34,870 nucleotides of DNA from Nevskia sp. (GTDB taxonomy: Bacteria; Pseudomonadota; Gammaproteobacteria; Nevskiales; Nevskiaceae). Shown here in pieces: positions 24,992 to 33,341 of this stretch; the first letter of the stretch is position 1, and each line of letters begins with the position of its first letter. The position numbers and the translations under genes are program-made. The stretch lies in contig NZ_JAHFRY010000006.1 in NCBI RefSeq assembly GCF_023266035.1, positions 1-34,870 of the forward strand, read 5' to 3'. The notes below the pieces were generated by a model. The model saw nothing but the letters and a program-made list of their open reading frames with translations, was not told the origin of the DNA and made no database searches.

Positions 24992-25029
24992 ACAGGCAGC
25001 AGCCAGCAAACCTCAGCGAAAACGTCCAG

Positions 25030-25063
25030 AATCCGCGCCCGCATCGCTCACGGCGCGGATTTT
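25030..25063 (+). terminator. Terminator-like hairpin after the pdh genes
   Basis: AATCCGCGCC (25030-25039) and GGCGCGGATT (25052-25061) form a 10-bp perfect stem with a 12-base loop, ending in a run of four T (25060-25063). It lies 39 bases after the E2 stop and 42 bases before nasT1, so it should separate the pdh operon from nasT1-nasS1. The loop is not an ANTAR-type hexaloop. Confidence 0.7.
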
Positions 25064-25104
25064 GCTCACAGCATTTTCACTTACGGTCATGCGGGTTTTC
25101 TGAC

Positions 25105-25674
25105 GTGCGAGTGGTCCTGGTCGATGATGATGGCGGGCGTCTCGCCCTGCTGGACGAGGCCATGCGCGCGGCTGGACATCAGGTGGTGGGCCGCCTCGCG
25201 CCGGATGGCGATCTGGTTGCCGCCGTCGACCTGCTGCAGCCGGACATCGTGCTGATCGATGTCGACAGCCCCAGCCGCGACACTCTCGAATCACTCGGCC
25301 AGATCAGCCGCGACCGGCCACGGCCTATCGTTCTGTTCGCCCAGCATTCCGATGCCGAAACCATCCGCCGGGCGATGAAGGCCGGTGTCTCGGCGTATGT
25401 CGTCGATGGCCTCAGCGCCGCGCGGCTGGCGCCGGTGATCGAAGTGGCGATCGCCCGCTTCCAGGAATACCAGACGCTGCGCGAGGAGCTGAGCTCGACC
25501 AAGCTCAAGCTCGCCGACCGCCGCGATGTCGAAAAAGCCAAGGGACTGCTGATGAAGCGCAAGGGAATCGACGAGAACGCCGCCTACGAAGCATTGCGGC
25601 GCATGGCGATGGATCGCAATCTGCGGCTCGGCGACATCGCCCGCTCGCTGATCGCCGCCGCGGATCTGCTGTGA
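25105..25674 (+). CDS. nasT: NasT-type ANTAR antiterminator (copy 1)
   Basis: The product has 189 residues from GTG 25105 (MRVVLVDDDGGRLALLDEAM). It has an N-terminal receiver domain with the acidic triad DDD (7-9) and a candidate phospho-acceptor in VLIDVDSPSRD (D52/D54). A coiled-coil linker (115-140) and a C-terminal ANTAR RNA-binding domain (about 142-189; EKAKGLLMKRKGIDENAAYEALRRMAMDRN) follow. NasT proteins bind two-hairpin leader RNAs and prevent termination when NasS releases them on nitrate or nitrite. The stop overlaps the nasS1 GTG start (GTGA), the usual nasT/nasS coupling. A paralogue occurs at 32664-33341. Confidence 0.88.
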   Translation: MRVVLVDDDGGRLALLDEAMRAAGHQVVGRLAPDGDLVAAVDLLQPDIVLIDVDSPSRDTLESLGQISRDRPRPIVLFAQHSDAETIRRAMKAGVSAYVVDGLSAARLAPVIEVAIARFQEYQTLREELSSTKLKLADRRDVEKAKGLLMKRKGIDENAAYEALRRMAMDRNLRLGDIARSLIAAADLL

Positions 25675-26726
25675 GCGGCCCGATCCCGCTGAAGCTCGGC
25701 CTGCTGCCGCTGGCCGATGCGGCGCCGCTGTTCGTGGCTCGCGAATGCGGCTATTTCGCTGGCCAGGGGCTGGATGTGAGCCTGAGCGTCGAAGCGTCCT
25801 GGGCCGGCCTGCGCGACAAGCTCGCCGCCGGCATGCTCGATGCCGCCCAGCTGCTGGCGCCGATGCCGCTGGCCGCGCAGCTCGGCGTCGACCGCCTCGG
25901 CGTGCCGTTGGAAACCGCGCTGACCCTGAGCCGCAACGGCAACGCGATCACCGTGTCGAACGCGCTGCATCGCCGGCTCGATTCCCCTGCCCCGGAACCG
26001 ATCGCCACCGGTGCGGCACTGAAGCGGGTGATCGACGAGGATCGTGCCGCCGGCCGGCCACTGCGCAGCTTCGCCCACGTGTTCCCGTTCTCGACCCACC
26101 ACTACCTGCTGCGCGACTGGCTGGCCGATGCCGGCATCGATCCGGACCGCGACGTGAAGCTGGTGGTGGTGCCGCCGCCGCTGGTGCTGAAAGCGCTGCG
26201 CGACGGCCGCATCGACGGTTATTGCGTCGGTGCGCCCTGGGGCTATGCGGCCGAGGTCGAAGGCATTGGCCAGCGCCTGCTCGCCACGCATACCATCCGC
26301 CCCGGCTGCGCCGAGAAAGTGCTTGGCGTCACTGGCGACTGGGCGAAGCACCAGCCGGACGCACATCTGGCGCTGGTCGCGGCGCTGATCGAAGCCGGAC
26401 GCTGGCTGGAACAGCCGGGCAATCGCGCGGCGGCGGCGCAGATGCTGATCGACGCCAAGCTTGTCGGTGCGCCGGACGAATGCCTGCGTGCCGCGCTGCG
26501 TGACGATCACGATGATCTGCTCAGCCCGCAGTTCATCTTTGGTGCGGGCGAGATGCTGCTGCCGCACCATGACGATGCACGCTGGTTCCTGCGCCAGATG
26601 CAGCGCTGGGGCCAGACTGGCGATGCCGTGGATATCGAAGGCACCGTGCTGGCCAGCTATCGCCTGCAATTGCACGATCAGGCCAGCAGCCGCGCCACTT
26701 CGGTCGCGACGCCGCTGCTTCAGTAG
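25671..26726 (+). CDS. nasS: NasS-type nitrate/nitrite sensor (copy 1, short form)
   Basis: The 351-residue protein belongs to the NrtA/CmpA-like periplasmic-binding-protein fold. It lacks a signal peptide (MSGPIPLKLGLLPLADAAPLFV), so it is a cytoplasmic sensor and not a transporter component. Shared family text includes FAHVFPFSTHHYLLRDWLADAGIDPDRDVKLVVVP and GRIDGYCVGAPWGYAAE. In known systems NasS holds NasT inactive without nitrate. Compared with NasS2 it lacks about 60 C-terminal residues. It starts inside the nasT1 stop and converges with apbE, leaving only 21 bases between. Confidence 0.85.
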   Translation: MSGPIPLKLGLLPLADAAPLFVARECGYFAGQGLDVSLSVEASWAGLRDKLAAGMLDAAQLLAPMPLAAQLGVDRLGVPLETALTLSRNGNAITVSNALHRRLDSPAPEPIATGAALKRVIDEDRAAGRPLRSFAHVFPFSTHHYLLRDWLADAGIDPDRDVKLVVVPPPLVLKALRDGRIDGYCVGAPWGYAAEVEGIGQRLLATHTIRPGCAEKVLGVTGDWAKHQPDAHLALVAALIEAGRWLEQPGNRAAAAQMLIDAKLVGAPDECLRAALRDDHDDLLSPQFIFGAGEMLLPHHDDARWFLRQMQRWGQTGDAVDIEGTVLASYRLQLHDQASSRATSVATPLLQ

Positions 26727-26747: not shown

Positions 26748-27806
26748 TCAGCCAACGACGCGAATGTTCATTTCCCGCTTCCAGGACAGCTCTGCGGCGA
26801 GCATCGGCGTCACCTGTGCGTCGCCATCGCTGGTCAGCGCCAGCACCCGATCCAGACCCAACTGATGGGCCAGCGCCGGCCAGTGCTGCGGGCCGGCCAC
26901 GAACAGTGCGGCACCGGCGGCATCGGCCATCGCGCCATCGGCATGCACCACGGTCAACGAGCGCAGACCTTCCGCCGGCCAGCCGCTCAGCGGATCGAGC
27001 AGATGTGAGTAGCGGCGACCCTGATGTTCGAAAGCACGCTGCTCGTCGCCGTGGGTGACCACCGAGCGTTCGCCCGGCTGCACGCTGGCCAGCACGTACT
27101 CCTGTTCGCCGCCATCGAAAGGATCGCGGATGCCGACTCGCCACGGACGGCCATCCCGGTAGCCGCGCGCGCCGACATGGCCGCCAGCATCGATGGTGGC
27201 ATCCGGAAAGCCGGCGCGAGCCAGCAGGTCGAGCATCTGATCGACGATGAAGCCCTTGCCGATAGCCCCGAAATCCCAGGCCACGTTCGGCGCCGGGCCG
27301 TAGCTGGCGCCGCCGTCGTATTCGGGGGCCGCGTGCAGCGCCTCGATCAGTGTTTCGATGTCGTCTGCCTCGGGCGGCGCGCTGCGCAGCCGCGCTGGAT
27401 CGTCAAAGCCCCAGAGGCGGACCAGGGCGGCGACACGCGGCTCGAACTGGCCGCGACAGGCTTCGCGGATCGCCCAGGCCTTGGCGAACAGATCCTTCAG
27501 CACCGGCGGCACGGTCGCAGTGCGGCCGGCGAGCAATTTCTGGTTGAACGCCGACAGGGCACCGGGCCCCCAGGCCCAGGCATCGCGGCCGAAAGCGATC
27601 ATGTCCCGCTGCACTTCGGTCATCACCCGGTCGACTTCGCGGCGCGAGCGACGGTTCGACACCACGGTCACCGTGATGGTCGTGCCCATCGCCAGATAGC
27701 GCTGGCGATAGGTGGTCTGCCGGGCCAGGAAATGGCTGACCGCATTCGCACCGGGCTGCGTGTCCCGTGCGTGCCGCAGCTGCGGTCTGACCATGATGTC
27801 AGCCAC
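26748..27806 (-). CDS. apbE: FAD:protein FMN transferase ApbE, without visible signal peptide
   Basis: The product has 352 residues from GTG 27806 (an ATG at 27794 is equally possible). ApbE signatures: LAMGTTITVTVV (38-49), FEPRVAALVRLWGF, WDFGAIGKGFIVD (177-189), IDAGGHVGARG, HLLDPLSGWP (268-277) and the metal-binding region DGAMADAAGAALFVAGP (290-306). The enzyme moves FMN from FAD onto a Thr of target proteins. Most ApbE proteins are exported lipoproteins. This N-terminus is polar (RPQLRHARDTQPGAN) with neither lipobox nor hydrophobic core, so it may act in the cytoplasm. Its obvious target is the FMN-binding protein two genes upstream. It overlaps the PepSY gene by eight bases. Confidence 0.9.
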   Translation of the reverse strand: MADIMVRPQLRHARDTQPGANAVSHFLARQTTYRQRYLAMGTTITVTVVSNRRSRREVDRVMTEVQRDMIAFGRDAWAWGPGALSAFNQKLLAGRTATVPPVLKDLFAKAWAIREACRGQFEPRVAALVRLWGFDDPARLRSAPPEADDIETLIEALHAAPEYDGGASYGPAPNVAWDFGAIGKGFIVDQMLDLLARAGFPDATIDAGGHVGARGYRDGRPWRVGIRDPFDGGEQEYVLASVQPGERSVVTHGDEQRAFEHQGRRYSHLLDPLSGWPAEGLRSLTVVHADGAMADAAGAALFVAGPQHWPALAHQLGLDRVLALTSDGDAQVTPMLAAELSWKREMNIRVVG

Positions 27807-28683
27807 CGTTGGCCGCCTTGCGTCGGCTCTGGCGAATGCGCCACCAGGTCCAGACGCCGCTGATCGACAGCATCAGCGCCAGCACCCCGATGATGGTGAT
27901 GATCCAGGCTCCGACGACGCCGAACAGGCGGCCGCTGTGGAGATCGATCAGCACCTGTTCGACGAGGATCGATGGCCGGGCGAACTGTTCGATATTGCTG
28001 CGCTGCTCGGCCGGCAAGGGCTTAGGCTCCGACCAGGTCACCGACTGCGGCAGCACCGGCACCCAGGTATTGCCGCCGTCGCTGCTTTCATAGGCATCGT
28101 AATCCTGTACGGCGATCGCGCCGGCAGCGGTGACGCCGATGCGGCGCACCGCCGCGATCGGCAGCACCGGCGGACGCAGTTCATCGATCCGTTCACCAGC
28201 CATCGTGGTGATCACCAGACTTTCCGGCGTGCCGATATAGAGCTGCGTGCCGGCAGGCCCGGCGAGCGATACGAATCCGACCGGCGCCGGCAGCCTCGGC
28301 GATACCTCCTTGGCATCGAGCAGCGTGTTTTCCTTGGTCGCCGCCATCCAGTGACCCGCAGCCTCGAAGCCCATGCGCGGTGCTTCAGCCCGGAGGCCGT
28401 ACATCGCCGTCAGCCAATCCCAGCGCAGCCTTGCGGTATCGAAGCCAAGCTCGTTGCTGCGAGTCAACAAGGTGCCGCTGACGCCGAGCCAGAGCACGAA
28501 GAAAGCCGCCGTCAGGCCGATGCGCTGATGCCACTGGCGCAGCACCGCAGTCAGGCTGCGTTTCGGTTTCGGCCGCGCCACAACGCCCTTCGCGGAAGTC
28601 GGCGCGGCGACTCTGCGCAGACGGCGCACGAGACGCCGGGCCAGATGCGCCGGGCGCGACTTGCTGGTGGATTCGGCGGCCAT
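27799..28683 (-). CDS. PepSY-domain inner-membrane protein
   Basis: The 294-residue protein has a basic cytoplasmic N-terminus and TM1 (about 57-75), preceded by the conserved LRQWHQRIGL (H52). A periplasmic part of about 175 residues is followed by TM2 (256-281), preceded by LIDLHSGRLFG (H249). The WHQRxGL and LHxGxLFG motifs are typical of PepSY-associated membrane proteins, whose histidines are proposed to bind heme and carry electrons across the membrane. The periplasmic part has a beta-propeller-like GGNTWVPVLP turn. It lies four bases after the FMN-binding protein gene and overlaps apbE, a pattern known from extracytosolic flavinylation clusters. Confidence 0.82.
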   Translation of the reverse strand: MAAESTSKSRPAHLARRLVRRLRRVAAPTSAKGVVARPKPKRSLTAVLRQWHQRIGLTAAFFVLWLGVSGTLLTRSNELGFDTARLRWDWLTAMYGLRAEAPRMGFEAAGHWMAATKENTLLDAKEVSPRLPAPVGFVSLAGPAGTQLYIGTPESLVITTMAGERIDELRPPVLPIAAVRRIGVTAAGAIAVQDYDAYESSDGGNTWVPVLPQSVTWSEPKPLPAEQRSNIEQFARPSILVEQVLIDLHSGRLFGVVGAWIITIIGVLALMLSISGVWTWWRIRQSRRKAANGG

Positions 28684-28687
28684 GGCC

Positions 28688-29290
28688 TCAGGCCGCTGCC
28701 ATGCTGTCGAGCACCAGGGCCGTTGCTGCCATGCGTTCCATCATCTTGACCGACAGGGTGGCGCCGGAAATGTTGTCGACGGTCTTGTCGAGCTTGGCAC
28801 CGGCCAGCTTGGCGCCGGTGATCTTCTTCAGCCACGAGGCTTCGGCAATCTGCTCGCCGCGCGATTCGCGATAGATCAGCACCCGGGCGGAATCGATGCT
28901 GCCGTCCTTGACGACGAAACCGGAGGTGGTCAGCTGATAGCCGACCTTGCCGATGTCATCGAGGATCCAGGCGCTGCGGCCATCGGCTTTCCAGTAGCGA
29001 AGCTGCGCCTGCGGATAGGCGCGACCGAAAGCGGCACTGAGCTTGCCCTGCGCCGCAGCATCGAGCATCAGCACCTTGGGCGCAGGCGGCGTGCTGCCGA
29101 AGACTTCGGTCAGGAAGGCAGTCGGCGTCTGGAAGGTCGTCCACAGATCGGTGGCTCTGCCGAGCGACGGCAGCATCAAGCCCGCGAAGAGGCCGCCGAC
29201 AGTCCGCAGCAGCGAACGGCGAGATACGGGTTCCAGACCAGTGACGAGGTCCGGAACGGGAAATTGGATGTCTCTGTTTCTGTTGGTCAT
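28688..29290 (-). CDS. Tat-exported FMN-binding domain protein
   Basis: The product has 200 residues from ATG 29290. The N-terminus reads PVSRRSLLRTVGGLFAGLML (21-40), a twin-arginine signal (SRRSLL at 23-28) with a hydrophobic core. The body ends in an FMN-binding domain with the flavinylation motif SGATLS at 175-180, where T178 would carry FMN through a phosphoester bond made by ApbE. KVGYQLTTSGFVVKDGSIDSARVLIYRESRG is the beta core of the domain. It is probably a periplasmic one- or two-electron carrier. A terminator-like hairpin separates it from the globin gene upstream, and PepSY follows at four bases. Confidence 0.87.
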   Translation of the reverse strand: MTNRNRDIQFPVPDLVTGLEPVSRRSLLRTVGGLFAGLMLPSLGRATDLWTTFQTPTAFLTEVFGSTPPAPKVLMLDAAAQGKLSAAFGRAYPQAQLRYWKADGRSAWILDDIGKVGYQLTTSGFVVKDGSIDSARVLIYRESRGEQIAEASWLKKITGAKLAGAKLDKTVDNISGATLSVKMMERMAATALVLDSMAAA

Positions 29291-29387: not shown

Positions 29388-29426
29388 AAAAGGCCCGGAC
29401 GCTGCCGACCAGCGCAGAGTCCGGGC
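29388..29426 (-). terminator. Terminator-like hairpin between globin and FMN-binding genes
   Basis: On the minus strand GCCCGGAC and GTCCGGGC form an 8-bp stem (29419-29426 with 29393-29400). It extends inward after a mismatch by CTGC/GCAG, with an eight-base loop, and is followed by C and then TTTT (29391-29388). It lies 51 bases after the globin stop and about 100 bases before the FMN-binding start. It probably ends or reduces transcription after the globin gene. A second small hairpin, TCCACG/CGTGGA, follows nearer the FMN-binding start. Confidence 0.65.
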
Positions 29427-29477: not shown

Positions 29478-29957
29478 TCAGCGGGTAACGATGGAACGCT
29501 TGAACGGTGCTAGAGCAGCAATCAGCTGGTTGCAGGTGTGATACGGGGTACGAAGGTCTTCGCAAGCCAGATAGGCATCTTCGACGACCGCGTTGAACTG
29601 GGTCAGGGTGATGCCCATTTCGGCATGAGCCGCACTCATGCTGGCGCCCTGATACTCCACTCCTGGCGCGCCCAGCATCACGGCAACAAGCTGCTGATTA
29701 AGCTTGATCTGACGATCAATCTTGCCGTGAGCGGTGAAGATGTAGTTGATGCGGTTGTCCAGCATGATGTACTTGAACAGGCCCTCAACCCAGCGATCCA
29801 TTCCATACTTGCCACCGAACTTCTCGTACGCGTCCGACGAGATCGGCGGAAAGGTGGACTGGACCTTACCTTCCGGCGTTTCCGAACCAGCGGCGAAGGC
29901 CGACAATGACGACAGGCTGAAAGCCGTCGCGAGTACCAATTTGTAGAACGACTTCAT
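29478..29957 (-). CDS. Exported group I truncated hemoglobin
   Basis: The product has 159 residues from ATG 29957 (AAGGAG eight bases upstream; an earlier in-frame start is rejected). A classic signal peptide, MKSFYKLVLATAFSLSSLSA (with FA before the cut), is followed by a 2-on-2 globin. It shows YEKFGGKYGMDRWVEGLFKYIMLDNRINYIF (helices A-B and C-E) and MSAAHAEMGITLTQFNAVVEDA with H111 as the proximal heme ligand. Two cysteines (132, 142) near the C-terminus could form a disulfide. Truncated globins bind O2, NO or nitrite; periplasmic forms are uncommon. It lies 59 bases after the DUF3034 gene and is probably co-transcribed with it. Confidence 0.87.
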   Translation of the reverse strand: MKSFYKLVLATAFSLSSLSAFAAGSETPEGKVQSTFPPISSDAYEKFGGKYGMDRWVEGLFKYIMLDNRINYIFTAHGKIDRQIKLNQQLVAVMLGAPGVEYQGASMSAAHAEMGITLTQFNAVVEDAYLACEDLRTPYHTCNQLIAALAPFKRSIVTR

Positions 29958-30016: not shown

Positions 30017-31090
30017 TTAGAAGCTCGCCTGCACCGAGAAATACGCACCGGTCTGCTTAGGGGTCAGAGTGATGTTTCCGAGGTTGGCGTATGCAGCGAC
30101 GAATGACAGGTTCTTGTTCGGGAAGTAGGCGAAGAACACGTCGTACCAATCGCTTTCGCGCTGGGTCAGCGTGCTGTTGAGGTTGTTCGCCAGATTGCCG
30201 ACCGGGCCGCCGACGCCGATGTTGTTCAGAGCACCGGTGATCGAGCCAAGCACGGAGGTATCGATGCCGCCGCCTACGGCAACGCCGCGACCGTCAGTGT
30301 TCTTGCCGTGCGCTGCGTACTCGGCACCGATCGCCACATTCTTGGCGAGCAGGTAGGCGAACGACACTTCAGGACGGAATTCGCGGCTGTTCTTGTTCGG
30401 GCCACCGAAACCGGTCAGACCGGTCTGGTTCGCCGCCGTGTAACGCACAGTGACGTTGAACAGAAGATCGAGCGGGAAGAAGATCTTGGTGATCGCGACA
30501 TAGGCTTCGAAATCCTTGCGCTTGTTGGCAAGGAGAGTATCCATCAGCGCGCCGTTGTGGTTGATCTTGTAGAAGCCACCGATGGCGACCTGCGGAATCA
30601 GCGTGTCCGAGTCATAAATCGATTCACCAAGCACGCGCAGCTTCGCGCCGAAGATATCCATCCGGATCGCCGTGTTGAACGGATCGATGCCGCTATCCTG
30701 GATCGCGACGCCAGCCAGCGTGTTGGTCAGCAAGCCAACGGTGTTGAACGTGCTGCCGGTCGGCAACAGATCATAGGCGTAGGAGAGTTCCAGACGATCG
30801 TAGAAACCGACCGCGACACCGAGCGAATTCAGACTGTAGTTCGGCAGGTTCGCATAGGTGTAGTGGATGCTGCCGTTGATGCCCTGGTTGGTTTCGTAAC
30901 CGGCAATGACTGCCCATGGCGTGATACCGCCGCCGGCCGCGCCGTCAGTGATATTGACGCCGCTGGTGGCGAGCACCTTGCCGGCATCATAGATTCCGGC
31001 CTGCGCTGCACCGGAGATGGCGAAACCAAGCGTTGCGCACGCGAAGGCAATCGCCGCTTTTTTCCCGCATCCCCTGCTGTAACCGTTCAT
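30017..31090 (-). CDS. DUF3034 outer-membrane beta-barrel protein
   Basis: The product has 357 residues from ATG 31090, with AAGGAG six bases upstream. The signal peptide (about 1-31) ends GAAQA. The mature part alternates polar and hydrophobic residues in strands and contains AVGFYDRLELSYAYD, DIFGAKLRVLGESIYDSDTL, PQVAIGGFYKINHNGA, ANQTGLTGFGGPN and YDVFFAYFPNKNLSFVAAYANLGNI. These are hallmarks of DUF3034 proteins. It ends in Phe, as outer-membrane barrels do. Its role is unknown; it may be a pore or a scaffold. First gene of the leftward redox operon, behind a sigma-54 promoter and an ANTAR-type leader. Confidence 0.88.
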   Translation of the reverse strand: MNGYSRGCGKKAAIAFACATLGFAISGAAQAGIYDAGKVLATSGVNITDGAAGGGITPWAVIAGYETNQGINGSIHYTYANLPNYSLNSLGVAVGFYDRLELSYAYDLLPTGSTFNTVGLLTNTLAGVAIQDSGIDPFNTAIRMDIFGAKLRVLGESIYDSDTLIPQVAIGGFYKINHNGALMDTLLANKRKDFEAYVAITKIFFPLDLLFNVTVRYTAANQTGLTGFGGPNKNSREFRPEVSFAYLLAKNVAIGAEYAAHGKNTDGRGVAVGGGIDTSVLGSITGALNNIGVGGPVGNLANNLNSTLTQRESDWYDVFFAYFPNKNLSFVAAYANLGNITLTPKQTGAYFSVQASF

Positions 31091-31160: not shown

Positions 31161-31204
31161 AAAAAAAAGTCCACGGACAGGCTGCATTGCCTGTGCGTGG
31201 ACTT
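31161..31204 (-). terminator. Leader terminator whose loop is an ANTAR-type hexaloop (P2)
   Basis: On the minus strand AAGTCCACG (31204-31196) pairs with CGTGGACTT (31175-31167). After a C-C mismatch, ACAGGC (31194-31189) pairs with GCCTGT (31182-31177) around the loop AATGCA (31188-31183). The transcript then has a run of eight T (31168-31161, the first two within the stem). This is a very strong intrinsic terminator lying 70 bases before the DUF3034 start codon, so it is an attenuator. The hexaloop has A at 1 and G at 4, the ANTAR recognition rule. Confidence 0.88.
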
Positions 31205-31214
31205 CGGTGTCCTG

Positions 31215-31240
31215 GGAACCAGTCAGCATTGGCTGATTCC
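31215..31240 (-). promoter_or_regulatory. First ANTAR-type leader hairpin (P1)
   Basis: On the minus strand GGAATCAG (31240-31233) pairs with CTGGTTCC (31222-31215), eight pairs including one T-G. Then, past one C-A mismatch, C31231 pairs with G31224 and closes the hexaloop AATGCT (31230-31225). A1 and G4 are present. It is separated by ten bases from the terminator hairpin that carries the second loop. Two tandem hexaloops with A1/G4 are the known binding site of ANTAR dimers such as NasR, NasT and EutV. Confidence 0.82.
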
Positions 31241-31280
31241 TGATGTTCGATGCCATCTTTACTGATGACGTGAGTAACCA

Positions 31281-31296
31281 AGCAATCCGTATGCCA
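31281..31296 (-). promoter_or_regulatory. Sigma-54 promoter of the DUF3034-globin operon
   Basis: On the minus strand TGGCATACGGATTGCT has GG and GC exactly ten bases apart and differs from the consensus TGGCAC-N5-TTGCW at one position only. The predicted start is near 31270, about 30 bases before hairpin P1. Sigma-54 promoters need an activator such as NtrC; I could not identify a convincing activator or IHF site in 31297-31395. The same pairing of sigma-54 promoter and ANTAR leader is known for the Klebsiella nasF operon. Confidence 0.75.
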
Positions 31297-31395: not shown

Positions 31396-32646
31396 CTAGG
31401 GAGCGACATTCGCCAGCAGCAAGGAAGCCTGGCCGACTGCCGGCAAGCCCAAGGTCTGGCGAGTCAGCCAGCCAATGGGATCGACGGGATCGAATACCGA
31501 ACCATCGAGCATTCCATCTGCACCAAGACGGATCGATCGACCATCGGCGGAGGGCATGACTGAACCATCTCGGCCATCACCTTCCGTCTTGTAGTCACCG
31601 CGTGGACAAGGCTCGCCAATGCTGGCGGCCACTTCGCGATAAAGCTCGCAGCGATAGACCTCGGCAGCGACATCGCTGAAGTTCGGCGCCATCCAGCATT
31701 GCCGCCAGCGCAGCATCTGCAACATGAACCACACCGCATGAGAGCGCCACGGAAAGGTCGCTGCGCCACGATGGAACACGATGCCGCCGGTGCGCATTTC
31801 CAGTGCCGCTTTCAGGGCCGATGCCGGTGCATCGATCACGCCATCGGCAATCATCTGTTCAGCGGCAACGATGCGGTTCTCCGGTTGATCGAGCCAGCGT
31901 GCGGTCTCGATCAGGGCCGCCACCATCGCGCGATGGGTGTTCGGATGGGCGTATGCCCAATCACGGGTCACGCCAAGCACTTTTTCGGGGCTGTTGTTCC
32001 AGATCTCGTGCTTGGTGGCCACCGTCATGCCGATACCACGCTGACGTGCCACTTCATTCCAGGGCTCGCCGACGCAATAACCGTCGACCCGCCCGGCATC
32101 CAGTTCCTGAACCATCTGCGACGGCGGCACCACACAGAGCTGCACATCGTTGTCGGGATCGATGTTGGCGCTGACCAGCCACATGCGCAGTTCATAGTGA
32201 TGCGCCGAGAACGGAAACACATGCGCGAACACCAGACGACGATTGCCCTGGGCACGATCGGCCGCAATCAGCTTGGCCAATGCTATCGCCGAGTTGCCGG
32301 CATCGACCGGCCCCTCGACCAGTTCCGCGATCCGTTCATGCAGTGAGCGCGACACGATGATCGCGTTGCCATTCAGGCTCAGGTTCATCGCCGTGACCAT
32401 CGGCACCGCCACACCATCCAGACCGAGCGTTGCCGCGATCGGCATCGGCGCCAGCATCTGGCCACCATCGAGCACGCCGGCAGCCACCTTGTCACGCAAG
32501 GCAGCCCAGGCGCGTTCGACACTCAACTCCACATCGAGTCCGTGGCGAGCGAAGAAGCCGTGAGACTTGGCGATCACCAGCGGTGCGGCATCGGCCAGCG
32601 GCAACAGCCCCAACCTGAGAGATGTCTTTTCGAGTTTGCTGTGCAT
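31396..32646 (-). CDS. nasS: NasS-type nitrate/nitrite sensor (copy 2, full-length form)
   Basis: The product has 416 residues from ATG 32646 (MHSKLEKTSLRLGLLPLADA); a TTG at 32667 overlapping the nasT2 stop is an alternative start. There is no signal peptide, so it is a cytoplasmic member of the NrtA/CmpA-like family. Family text: LVFAHVFPFSAHHYELRMWLVSANIDPDNDVQLCVVP, GRVDGYCVGEPWNEVARQRG and SPEKVLGVTRDWAYAHPNTH. Its C-terminal part (about 355-416, SVFDPVDPIGWLTRQTLGLP) is absent from NasS1. It should bind nitrate or nitrite and control NasT2. Its stop lies 100 bases before the operon promoter, so regulator and target are adjacent. Confidence 0.87.
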   Translation of the reverse strand: MHSKLEKTSLRLGLLPLADAAPLVIAKSHGFFARHGLDVELSVERAWAALRDKVAAGVLDGGQMLAPMPIAATLGLDGVAVPMVTAMNLSLNGNAIIVSRSLHERIAELVEGPVDAGNSAIALAKLIAADRAQGNRRLVFAHVFPFSAHHYELRMWLVSANIDPDNDVQLCVVPPSQMVQELDAGRVDGYCVGEPWNEVARQRGIGMTVATKHEIWNNSPEKVLGVTRDWAYAHPNTHRAMVAALIETARWLDQPENRIVAAEQMIADGVIDAPASALKAALEMRTGGIVFHRGAATFPWRSHAVWFMLQMLRWRQCWMAPNFSDVAAEVYRCELYREVAASIGEPCPRGDYKTEGDGRDGSVMPSADGRSIRLGADGMLDGSVFDPVDPIGWLTRQTLGLPAVGQASLLLANVAP

Positions 32647-32663: not shown

Positions 32664-33341
32664 TCAAAGCACGTCGGAGGCGGCAAGCAGCAGCCTCGCG
32701 TAATCACCGATCCGCTGCTTGCGGTCCATGGCCATCTTGCGAAGCATTGCGTATGCCTCGCCTTCGTCGAGCTTGCGCCGCTTCATCAGCAATCCCTTGG
32801 CGCGTTCGATATCACGCTGATCGGCGAGCCGGGCGTTGGCGACGGTCAGTTCCTGGCTCAAGGCCTGGTGCACTTCGAAACGGGCGATCGCAACATCGAG
32901 CAGCGCGCTGAGCCGGGTCGGATGCAGGCCGTCGACGACATAGGCGCTGACGCCGGCATGCACGGCACGGTGTGCAGTTTCGGCATCGCTGCGTGCTGCG
33001 AACAAAACGATCGGCCGGGGTCGTTCGCGATGAATCTGACCCAGTGATTCCAGCGTGTCACGGCTCGGGGCATCGACATCGATGAAGATCACGTCGGGCT
33101 GGTGCACGGTGACGCCGGCCAGCAGATCGGCCTGGGTATCGAGCCGCACGACGATCACATGCCCTTCCGCGACCAGGGCCTGTTCGAGCATCAGCAACCG
33201 CGAGGCATCGTCATCGACAAGCATCACCCGCAGACCGCGATGCGCCATCTTGCTTGACGGCGACTTGTCGCTGTAGCTGCTGCTTCGCTGAGGCTTCGGC
33301 GAAGCGGGTGGCTGCGATGCTTCCAATTTATTGACCTTCAT
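32664..33341 (-). CDS. nasT: NasT-type ANTAR antiterminator (copy 2)
   Basis: The product has 225 residues if started at ATG 33341 (MKVNKLEASQPPASPKPQ). ATG 33365 and ATG 33248 (MAHRGLRVMLVDDD) are alternatives, and the polar N-terminal tail makes 33248 plausible. The receiver has DDD and VIFIDVDAPSRDTLESLGQI. The ANTAR domain reads IERAKGLLMKRRKLDEGEAYAMLRKMAMDRKQRIGDYARLLL. It is closely similar to NasT1 across the whole length (for example APSRDTLESLGQIHRERPRPIVLFA against SPSRDTLESLGQISRDRPRPIVLFA). It is the natural candidate to bind the leader at 31161-31240. It overlaps or abuts nasS2. Confidence 0.87.
   Translation of the reverse strand: MKVNKLEASQPPASPKPQRSSSYSDKSPSSKMAHRGLRVMLVDDDASRLLMLEQALVAEGHVIVVRLDTQADLLAGVTVHQPDVIFIDVDAPSRDTLESLGQIHRERPRPIVLFAARSDAETAHRAVHAGVSAYVVDGLHPTRLSALLDVAIARFEVHQALSQELTVANARLADQRDIERAKGLLMKRRKLDEGEAYAMLRKMAMDRKQRIGDYARLLLAASDVL

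Follow-up and report, generated by a model that had tools for sequence, protein, structure and literature searches.

Locus and gene content

The window, the whole stretch of 34,870 nt analysed here, comprises bases 1–34870 of a 62,510-base contig from a single genome. On its minus strand, genes for an OmpA-cupredoxin protein, NasT2 and NasS2 are followed by a leader region and then by genes for a DUF3034 protein, a globin, an FMN_bind protein, a PepSY_TM protein and ApbE. The nasT1 and nasS1 genes are located on the opposite strand, converging toward the DUF3034 operon (Table 1). An earlier note on this DNA placed NasT genes on both sides of the leader, and this is borne out: NasT1 and NasT2, each accompanied by a NasS, are recognized by Pfam, with PDB matches additionally supporting NasT2 and NasS2. 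An NrtA-like sensor adjoining a receiver-ANTAR protein is the arrangement of a NasS-NasT pair. NasT1 and NasT2 are 61 % identical over 189 residues. NasT2 aligns with EutV almost full-length and, by hand count against the RNA-contact residues listed in the available text of PMC8934654, 6 of 11 are identical (K149, E160, Y164, R168, M172 and R177), 4 similar and 1 different, the changed positions being K143R, K147R, N173D, R175K and R142Q.

Table 1. Genes and leader features of the DUF3034 locus (window positions in nt)
Feature	Position	Strand	Basis
Sigma-54 −24/−12 promoter TGGCATACGGATTGCT	31281–31296	−	Sole TGGCAYN5TTGCW match within the window
P0, 5′ hairpin near expected transcript start, loop AGTAAA, non-ANTAR type	31252–31269	−	Fold of promoter-P1 stretch
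P1 hairpin, hexaloop AATGCT (A1, G4), C-G top pair	31215–31240	−	Comparison of relatives
P2 hairpin GGAC-ACCGAA-GTCC (A1, G4), predicted antiterminator hairpin	31199–31212	−	Single window match, conservation
Intrinsic terminator stem-loop, tip loop AATGCA (31188–31183)	31169–31202	−	Fold z −7.65; basal pairing in relatives
Terminator T-run, eight T	31161–31168	−	Sequence
DUF3034 gene, predicted outer-membrane beta-barrel	30017–31090	−	Pfam PF11231, 263 bits
Exported group-1 truncated globin	29478–29957	−	PF01152, 22.7 bits, slightly over cut-off
FMN_bind protein, SGAT flavinylation-type motif	28688–29287	−	PF04205; motif from translation
PepSY_TM membrane protein	27799–28683	−	PF03929
ApbE flavin transferase	26748–27806	−	PF02424
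NasS2, nitrate/bicarbonate-binding-protein-like sensor	31396–32646	−	PF13379; PDB NrtA, nitrate and CmpC transporter chains
NasT2, receiver + ANTAR	32664–33242	−	PF00072 and PF03861; PDB 1s8n (putative antiterminator), 6wsh/6ww6 (EutV response regulator)
NasT1, receiver + ANTAR	25021–25674	+	PF00072 and PF03861
NasS1	25671–26726	+	PF13379

Architecture of the leader

The earlier note proposed a sigma-54 promoter plus an ANTAR attenuator in front of DUF3034. That overall reading stands, with a promoter motif, two hairpins (P1 and P2) and a terminator that are conserved in relatives. The −24/−12 element carries GG at −24 and GC at −12 at the correct spacing, and only 2 of 100 shuffles of the window contain any match to the pattern that it alone matches here. 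The Klebsiella nasF promoter is likewise said to be of the sigma-54 type. A search for an NtrC-like enhancer above the window promoter turned up nothing convincing: the best site has 3 mismatches and is equalled in 63 of 100 shuffles.

P1 (GGAATCAGCC-AATGCT-GACTGGTTCC) is, as described before, a hairpin that pairs throughout apart from one C·A mismatch. Its energy alone is ordinary (z −1.20, matched by 24 of 200 shuffles), RNAfold closes the window loop with an A1-U6 pair to leave a tetraloop rather than a hexaloop, and an alternative pairing displaces part of P1 in the fold of the 116-nt leader. The evidence for P1 comes from comparison with relatives. The stretch downstream of P1, previously taken for a ten-base linker, contains P2, a 4-bp stem with a hexaloop that is nearly invariant in relatives. 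The P2 pattern GGACANNGNNGTCC has no other match in the window, and any match occurs in 4 of 100 shuffles.

The terminator with its eight T and AATGCA loop is present as described. Terminator plus T-run fold with a z of −7.65 and the 116-nt leader with −4.28. A sigma-70/terminator consensus scan missed this main terminator, its terminator count in the window being 4 versus 6.5 in shuffles. The four bases GTCC at 31202–31199 form the 3′ arm of P2 and also begin the terminator stem; P2 and the terminator are mutually exclusive because these bases are common to both. The pair of hexaloop hairpins with stems of 3 bp or more that marks ANTAR leaders is present in the window and in relatives, subject to the RNAfold tetraloop in P1. 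In the window both loops have A1 and G4 and are closed by C:G, and P2 overlaps the terminator. An Rfam scan returned no family at gathering score.

Conservation and covariation

In a family search, 22 of 41 genomes had DUF3034 matches and 20 of these yielded loci; a leader was placed by script in 19 of the 20 loci, the window's own copy being L008. L001, whose DUF3034 shows just 26 % identity, lacks a leader. Seven leaders from named genomes on other contigs bring the set to 26; this count leaves out L001, L089 (a variant tandem leader) and three leaderless Zhongshania loci. The script required a sigma-54 motif, GTCC, at least three P2 pairs and a T-run, such that the presence of the sigma-54 motif in the 26 is preset, and it rewarded A1, G4 and pairing, for which reason the letter counts lean upward. 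An NtrC-like palindrome with one mismatch occurs in L005 and L076 only.

P1 and P2 together have a covariation score of 0.379, against 0.169 ± 0.020 in shuffles, of which 0 of 500 score as high; slid alignments reach at most 0.142. Across 18 distinct aligned rows, 86.3 % of cells in the two hairpins are paired. In P1, 8 of 10 pairs have two-sided changes (a count equalled in 27 of 500 shuffles), the top pair is C-G in all 18 rows, and the second pair below the loop is open in 10. In P2, 98.6 % of cells are paired with zero two-sided changes, and the top pair is C-G in 15 rows and U-G in 3. On this alignment, P1 is backed by covariation and P2 by conservation without covariation.

Both A1 and G4 are present in the P1 loop of 21 of the 26 leaders and in the P2 loop of 20, with G4 alone in 24 for either loop; among only the seven added leaders the figures are 7/7 and 6/7. 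In P1, position 1 is G in three leaders and C in two, and position 4 is A in two; in P2, position 1 is G in four and position 4 is A in two. No convincing P1 hexaloop is seen in L012 or L013, and G4 is missing from P2 in L016 and L079. In the comparison of relatives that had been proposed as a check, compensatory changes in P1 are seen, A1/G4 is not fixed in either loop and P2 lacks two-sided changes. L002, L004 and L007, from related genomes, show a parallel change to G1 in both P1 (GACGAA) and P2 (GACGAC). In the EutV-RNA structure, as given in the available text of PMC8934654, A1 is uncontacted and G4 stacks on Tyr164, so G1 loops need not break recognition. The C-G top pairs of P1 and P2 are resembled by the NasR SELEX consensus (PMC7496416, available text).

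P2 has a near-fixed placement relative to P1. The loop starts are 21–23 nt apart in 23 of 26 leaders and 24, 25 and 28 nt apart in the remaining three; the window value is 22. At the base of the terminator, 7 or 8 of 8 pairs form in each of the 26 leaders (counted at the best offset, chosen by script), with two-sided changes at pairs 5–8. A T-run of 8 or 9 T is present in all 26, at least six T having been a search condition.

The stretch between promoter and P1, which in the window forms P0, averages a fold z of −2.46 and falls below −1 in 21 of 26 leaders, while its sequence varies, and P0 perhaps contributes to transcript stability. A structured 5′ end of this kind, varied in sequence and present in most leaders, would also suit an attenuator that acts constitutively, or an ordinary sigma-54 promoter with an unregulated terminator, in which the hairpins served RNA stability only. 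Stability alone would not lead one to expect the loop letters, the C-G top pairs, the near-fixed spacing or the co-occurrence with ANTAR proteins described below, and such an unregulated leader is considered highly unlikely.

The terminator tip loop

The earlier note took the tip loop of the terminator as the second ANTAR hairpin, nested in the terminator stem itself, and from this suggested a mechanism different from that of EutV-type leaders. Under this reading P1 and the tip hairpin (AATGCA) would form the ANTAR pair and NasT would act on the terminator itself. In the window the tip forms an A1/G4 hexaloop, and 11 of the 26 leaders show one. Among terminators without an upstream sigma-54 element at the scanned loci the count is 0 of 54, 6 of which had a hexaloop of any kind. 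In addition, the P2-to-tip spacing is 20–21 nt where read, similar to that from P1 to P2. Against this, the tips of the other 15 leaders are not A1/G4 hexaloops (tip loops range from 3 to 9 nt), P2 already lies at a near-fixed distance from P1, and binding of the tip alone would not undo the terminator. Mapped on the DUF3034 tree, the trait requires five changes, three of them forced by well-supported branches; a change count as low arises in 7 of 500 label shuffles, indicating that the trait is clustered by kinship. A conserved A1/G4 tip across relatives, which this reading would call for, is not found, and a better second hairpin precedes the terminator. P1 and the tip as the ANTAR pair is thus improbable.

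As a rule the tip loop was rejected as the second ANTAR hairpin; it is retained as an optional third loop. The enrichment and the 20–21-nt spacing suggest that it may be a third NasT site in the lineages that carry it. The proposed difference in mechanism is not upheld, because P2 and the terminator are alternatives here, just as they are in the eut, amiE and nasF leaders (Ramesh 2012; PMC3369931, available text). When reading ANTAR leaders, P2 should be sought at the 5′ base of the terminator and not at its tip.

Distribution of the leader and operon

A wider search across the taxonomic order covered 85 genomes and gave 49 DUF3034 rows in 45 genomes, or 48 after one of two single-gene pieces from G025 was dropped. 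A covariance model of the leader (R1) has 75 matches in 41 of the 85 genomes. An R1 leader lies upstream of 39 of the 48 DUF3034 matches (37 genomes), 188–338 nt ahead of where the profile match begins. Of these 39, 19 are training leaders; outside the training set, a leader is found at 20 of 29 DUF3034 matches. R1 was scored on 76 (85-genome search) or 150 (41-genome search) of the thousands of first-look candidates per genome, and its misses are not equivalent to absences.

The nine DUF3034 matches without an R1 leader are of several kinds. Three are from one genus (G038, G087 and G092), where upstream stretches of about 1 kb contain neither a sigma-54 pattern nor a six-T run. Two (G010 and G063) are at contig ends, and the G066 miss is a tandem second copy. 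The remaining three (G025, G057 and G058) have variant leaders by eye, the contig of G058 starting within the leader.

Among the matches listed, DUF3034-globin-FMN_bind-PepSY is present in 17 of 36 named loci, 7 of the 17 being on the same contigs as genomes of the 85-genome search. Among the same matches, a sigma-54 element is upstream in 17 of 17 flavin-module loci versus 0 of 19 others (Pseudomonas, Acidithiobacillus, Hydrogenophaga and others; several on short contigs), which lack one within 500 nt and also lack any match to the window FMN_bind or PepSY. An R1 leader is present in 13 of the 17 flavin-module loci among the matches listed, six of them training leaders; the remainder are the variant tandem leader of L089 and three Zhongshania loci (L077, L085 and L088), which have the operon and a sigma-54 site and no leader by model or by eye. 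The refuting case named in the earlier note, relatives that carry the operon and lack the paired hexaloops or terminator, is seen at these three loci. Because Zhongshania has the operon without it, the leader is, on the loci compared, a clade-specific addition rather than universal to the operon, and the operon can exist without it. The three Zhongshania genomes each have an ANTAR protein, and the one inspected adjoins an ORF that is NasS-like by eye.

Named relatives of the operon are from the Nevskiaceae (Solimonas, Panacagrimonas and Stenotrophobium among them) and related MAGs, and ApbE was not found adjoining the operon in every one. In place of hairpins or a terminator, the Zhongshania loci share a common stretch ending ACGCGGGGC before the start codon. 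In a Salinisphaerales MAG (L039, reverse strand; L089:5727–6000), tandem ANTAR-like attenuators precede DUF3034 beside two NasT-like genes, with loops AATGAC, AACGAC and AATGGC and a P2 stem of GGC/GCC.

Regulators and putative regulon

An ANTAR protein is present in 21 of 22 genomes with an R1 match versus 10 of 19 without (Fisher p 0.0025, kinship ignored). The genome of the window encodes three receiver-ANTAR proteins, the third on another contig (L116:4522–5112, plus strand). A second sigma-54 plus ANTAR leader (L021:37–78, minus strand; contig 34907–34948) sits just beyond the window end and a gap of 10 N, before OmpA-cupredoxin-nasT2-nasS2, and the L024 copy of it has a T-run. The regulator's own operon (nasT2-nasS2) seems, on this layout, to be under the same control.

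Further along the same contig, a sigma-54 plus ANTAR-like leader is seen by eye at L021:9026–9200 (plus strand), with loops AAAGAC and AAAGGC and a terminator GCGCCC...GGGCGC. It is followed by a porin and then by NMT1_2, BPD_transp_1, ABC_tran, MFS, NirB-type and molybdopterin-reductase genes (Pfam), read as nrtABC-narK-nirB-nasA. R1 missed this leader, perhaps through wider separation of its hairpins. With a similar leader preceding nitrate-assimilation genes of this contig, control of the DUF3034 operon seems to be shared with nitrate assimilation. The previous description of the target as 'non-assimilatory' stands in part: the operon consists of DUF3034, globin, FMN_bind, PepSY and ApbE genes and is not nitrate reduction itself, as claimed, whereas its contig also encodes, behind a similar leader, a nitrate-type ABC transporter together with NirB and a molybdopterin reductase. 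In the genome of the window (96.8 % complete; screened for NirK, NirS and NarG), neither NirK nor NirS was found, and for NarG there were just two weak matches under the cut-off, consistent with assimilation rather than denitrification by this organism. The leaders on this one contig look like a NasT regulon of several members.

With the promoter motif, P1, P2, the terminator and its overlap with P2 all legible in the sequence and conserved, P1 and the terminator base covarying, and NasS/NasT genes adjacent, the leader is read as a transcription attenuator of the canonical ANTAR type, downstream of a sigma-54 promoter and placing the DUF3034 operon under nitrate/NasT control (probability about 0.85). 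The assignment to nitrate and NasT follows from the flanking NasS-NasT genes and from the similar leaders at nasTS and at the nitrate-assimilation genes. In the proposed course of events, nascent RNA would in the uninduced state fold P1 and then the terminator, and transcription would halt before DUF3034. Binding of nitrate or nitrite by NasS would release NasT, as in the NasS-NasT pairs that have been studied, and freed NasT would bind the P1 and P2 hexaloops. With GTCC held in P2 the terminator could not form, and DUF3034-globin-FMN_bind-PepSY-ApbE would be transcribed. NasT binding, nitrate as the signal and the direction of control are predictions of this scheme.

The same attenuator could in principle answer another signal or another ANTAR protein, e.g. 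the third receiver-ANTAR protein on its separate contig (C177). The genome has three candidate proteins, and some other genomes retain the leader with no nasS/nasT detected next to the operon. However, NasS2-NasT2 is encoded directly upstream, its own operon has a similar leader, and the nitrate-assimilation genes are on the same contig, which leaves such an alternative a minor possibility beside nitrate/NasT control.

Several further leaders were noted. Sigma-54 plus ANTAR leaders precede short ORFs at L021:8634–8676, L023:3324–3365, L027:12072–12112, L028:11735–11776, L032:13596–13637 and L076:4291–4330. The ORFs are of about 36–67 codons (36–54 for the L021 ORF), have a single-span membrane look by eye with a pattern around a conserved Gln, and could possibly be a nitrate-regulated microprotein family. 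The L021:8634–8676 leader, which belongs to the contig of the window, has no T-run and its P2 abuts an ATG, a layout that would fit translational control.

One Solimonas-type lineage of three loci (G023, L082 and L083), with nasT between globin and FMN_bind, has an extra, weaker leader (25–27 bits) before FMN_bind (L037:6896–6939, minus strand; L082:9099–9142; L083:9272–9315). Its placement suggests that both operon halves need the same control. In the window, the gap between globin and FMN_bind holds a strong hairpin at 29393–29426 (minus strand; GCCCGGAC...GTCCGGGC, then CTTTT) to which R1 has no match. It is possibly an internal terminator, or a relic of the Solimonas-lineage extra leader.

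Comparison with known systems

The eut leaders of Enterococcus, governed by EutV/EutW (Ramesh 2012, PMC3369931; Walshe 2022, PMC8934654; available text), resemble the present leader in having two A1/G4 hexaloop hairpins with P2 overlapping the terminator base. The eutP loops start at 29 and 53 (PMC3369931), a spacing of 24 nt compared with 22 here, and the gap between stems is 5–12 nt in eut leaders compared with about 2–3 nt here, where P1 is longer. The target genes and the sigma-54 promoter also differ, and the receiver protein, kinase-controlled in the eut system, is here thought to be NasS-controlled. The nasF leader of Klebsiella oxytoca (PMC3369931, PMC7496416; available text) is likewise a two-hairpin ANTAR attenuator, and nasF answers nitrate; unlike here, the regulator NasR is a one-component NIT-ANTAR protein and nasF is assimilatory. 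The build of the leader is well supported as standard, on an unusual, conserved and uncharacterised target, and the newness lies in the target and the possible third loop rather than in the mechanism.

NasT acting on non-assimilatory genes has a precedent in Bradyrhizobium, where NasS-NasT controls nos/nap and narK-bjgb-flp-nasC (PMC6759348, PMC4724949; available text). There, Bjgb-Flp is a haemoglobin and flavoprotein pair for NO detoxification that is tied to nitrate assimilation and counteracts the NO arising from it (PMC4724949), a parallel to the globin and flavoprotein here. In one study of a nasT mutant, narK-bjgb-flp expression was higher, not lower (PMC6759348, available text). Bjgb-Flp is cytoplasmic, whereas the present globin has a signal-like N-terminus, a predicted electron path through FMN_bind and PepSY, and an outer-membrane barrel for company. 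By this parallel the operon may carry out NO detoxification in the periplasm, as a possible periplasmic counterpart of Bjgb-Flp.

PepSY-type flavinylation clusters (Meheust 2021, PMC8238504; PMC11334425; available text) combine a PepSY membrane protein, ApbE and a flavinylated secreted protein, as here; their usual partner is DUF2271 and their proposed role iron reduction, unlike here. 'Globin' does not appear in the available texts of either paper, and 'hemoglobin' and 'DUF3034' do not appear in that of PMC8238504. Within the open-access literature as available, no related work on DUF3034 was found by title, none of the papers listed joins FMN-binding/PepSY/ApbE proteins with a globin, and no report of an ANTAR leader on a DUF3034-globin operon was found; the supplementary hit tables of Ramesh 2012 may contain one.

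Operon proteins and proposed function

The model of the DUF3034 protein is of low confidence (pLDDT 60.5, pTM 0.65) and has the strand pattern of a barrel, with the FapF, NanC and KdgM barrels as nearest Foldseek matches. The globin matches group-1 truncated haemoglobins in the PDB (best E 9.6e-10), and its N-terminus is signal-like by eye. In a hand-read alignment, the residue presumed to be B10 appears to be Phe, not Tyr, which weakens a guess of NO dioxygenase activity. The SGAT of the FMN_bind protein fits the flavinylation motif [S/T]GA[S/T] (PMC8238504, available text), and a PepSY-like protein of solved structure has two haem sites (PMC11334425, available text). Electrons would pass from the membrane to PepSY, to the flavoprotein and on to the globin, a donor relay suggested by gene neighbourhood.

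The most likely role of the operon would be one in which a periplasmic group-1 globin, reduced by the PepSY/flavoprotein relay, clears NO, or a related nitrogen oxide, produced during nitrate assimilation. A fuller picture is offered tentatively and is more doubtful than not: an undescribed envelope system of barrel, exported globin and flavinylated shuttle fed by a PepSY cytochrome would remove NO or another nitrogen oxide, being switched on together with nitrate assimilation by sigma-54 and NasT antitermination, and in some lineages the terminator tip would be a third NasT hexaloop (P3), completing a three-loop array at about 21-nt spacing. The proposed tie between an unstudied DUF3034-globin-flavin operon and nitrate sensing gives these proteins a first testable function. 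At L097:3423–7220, in Pseudomonas, a distant DUF3034-globin pair is located after a dCache-HAMP-GGDEF-EAL gene, and elsewhere the pair may be tied to cyclic-di-GMP.
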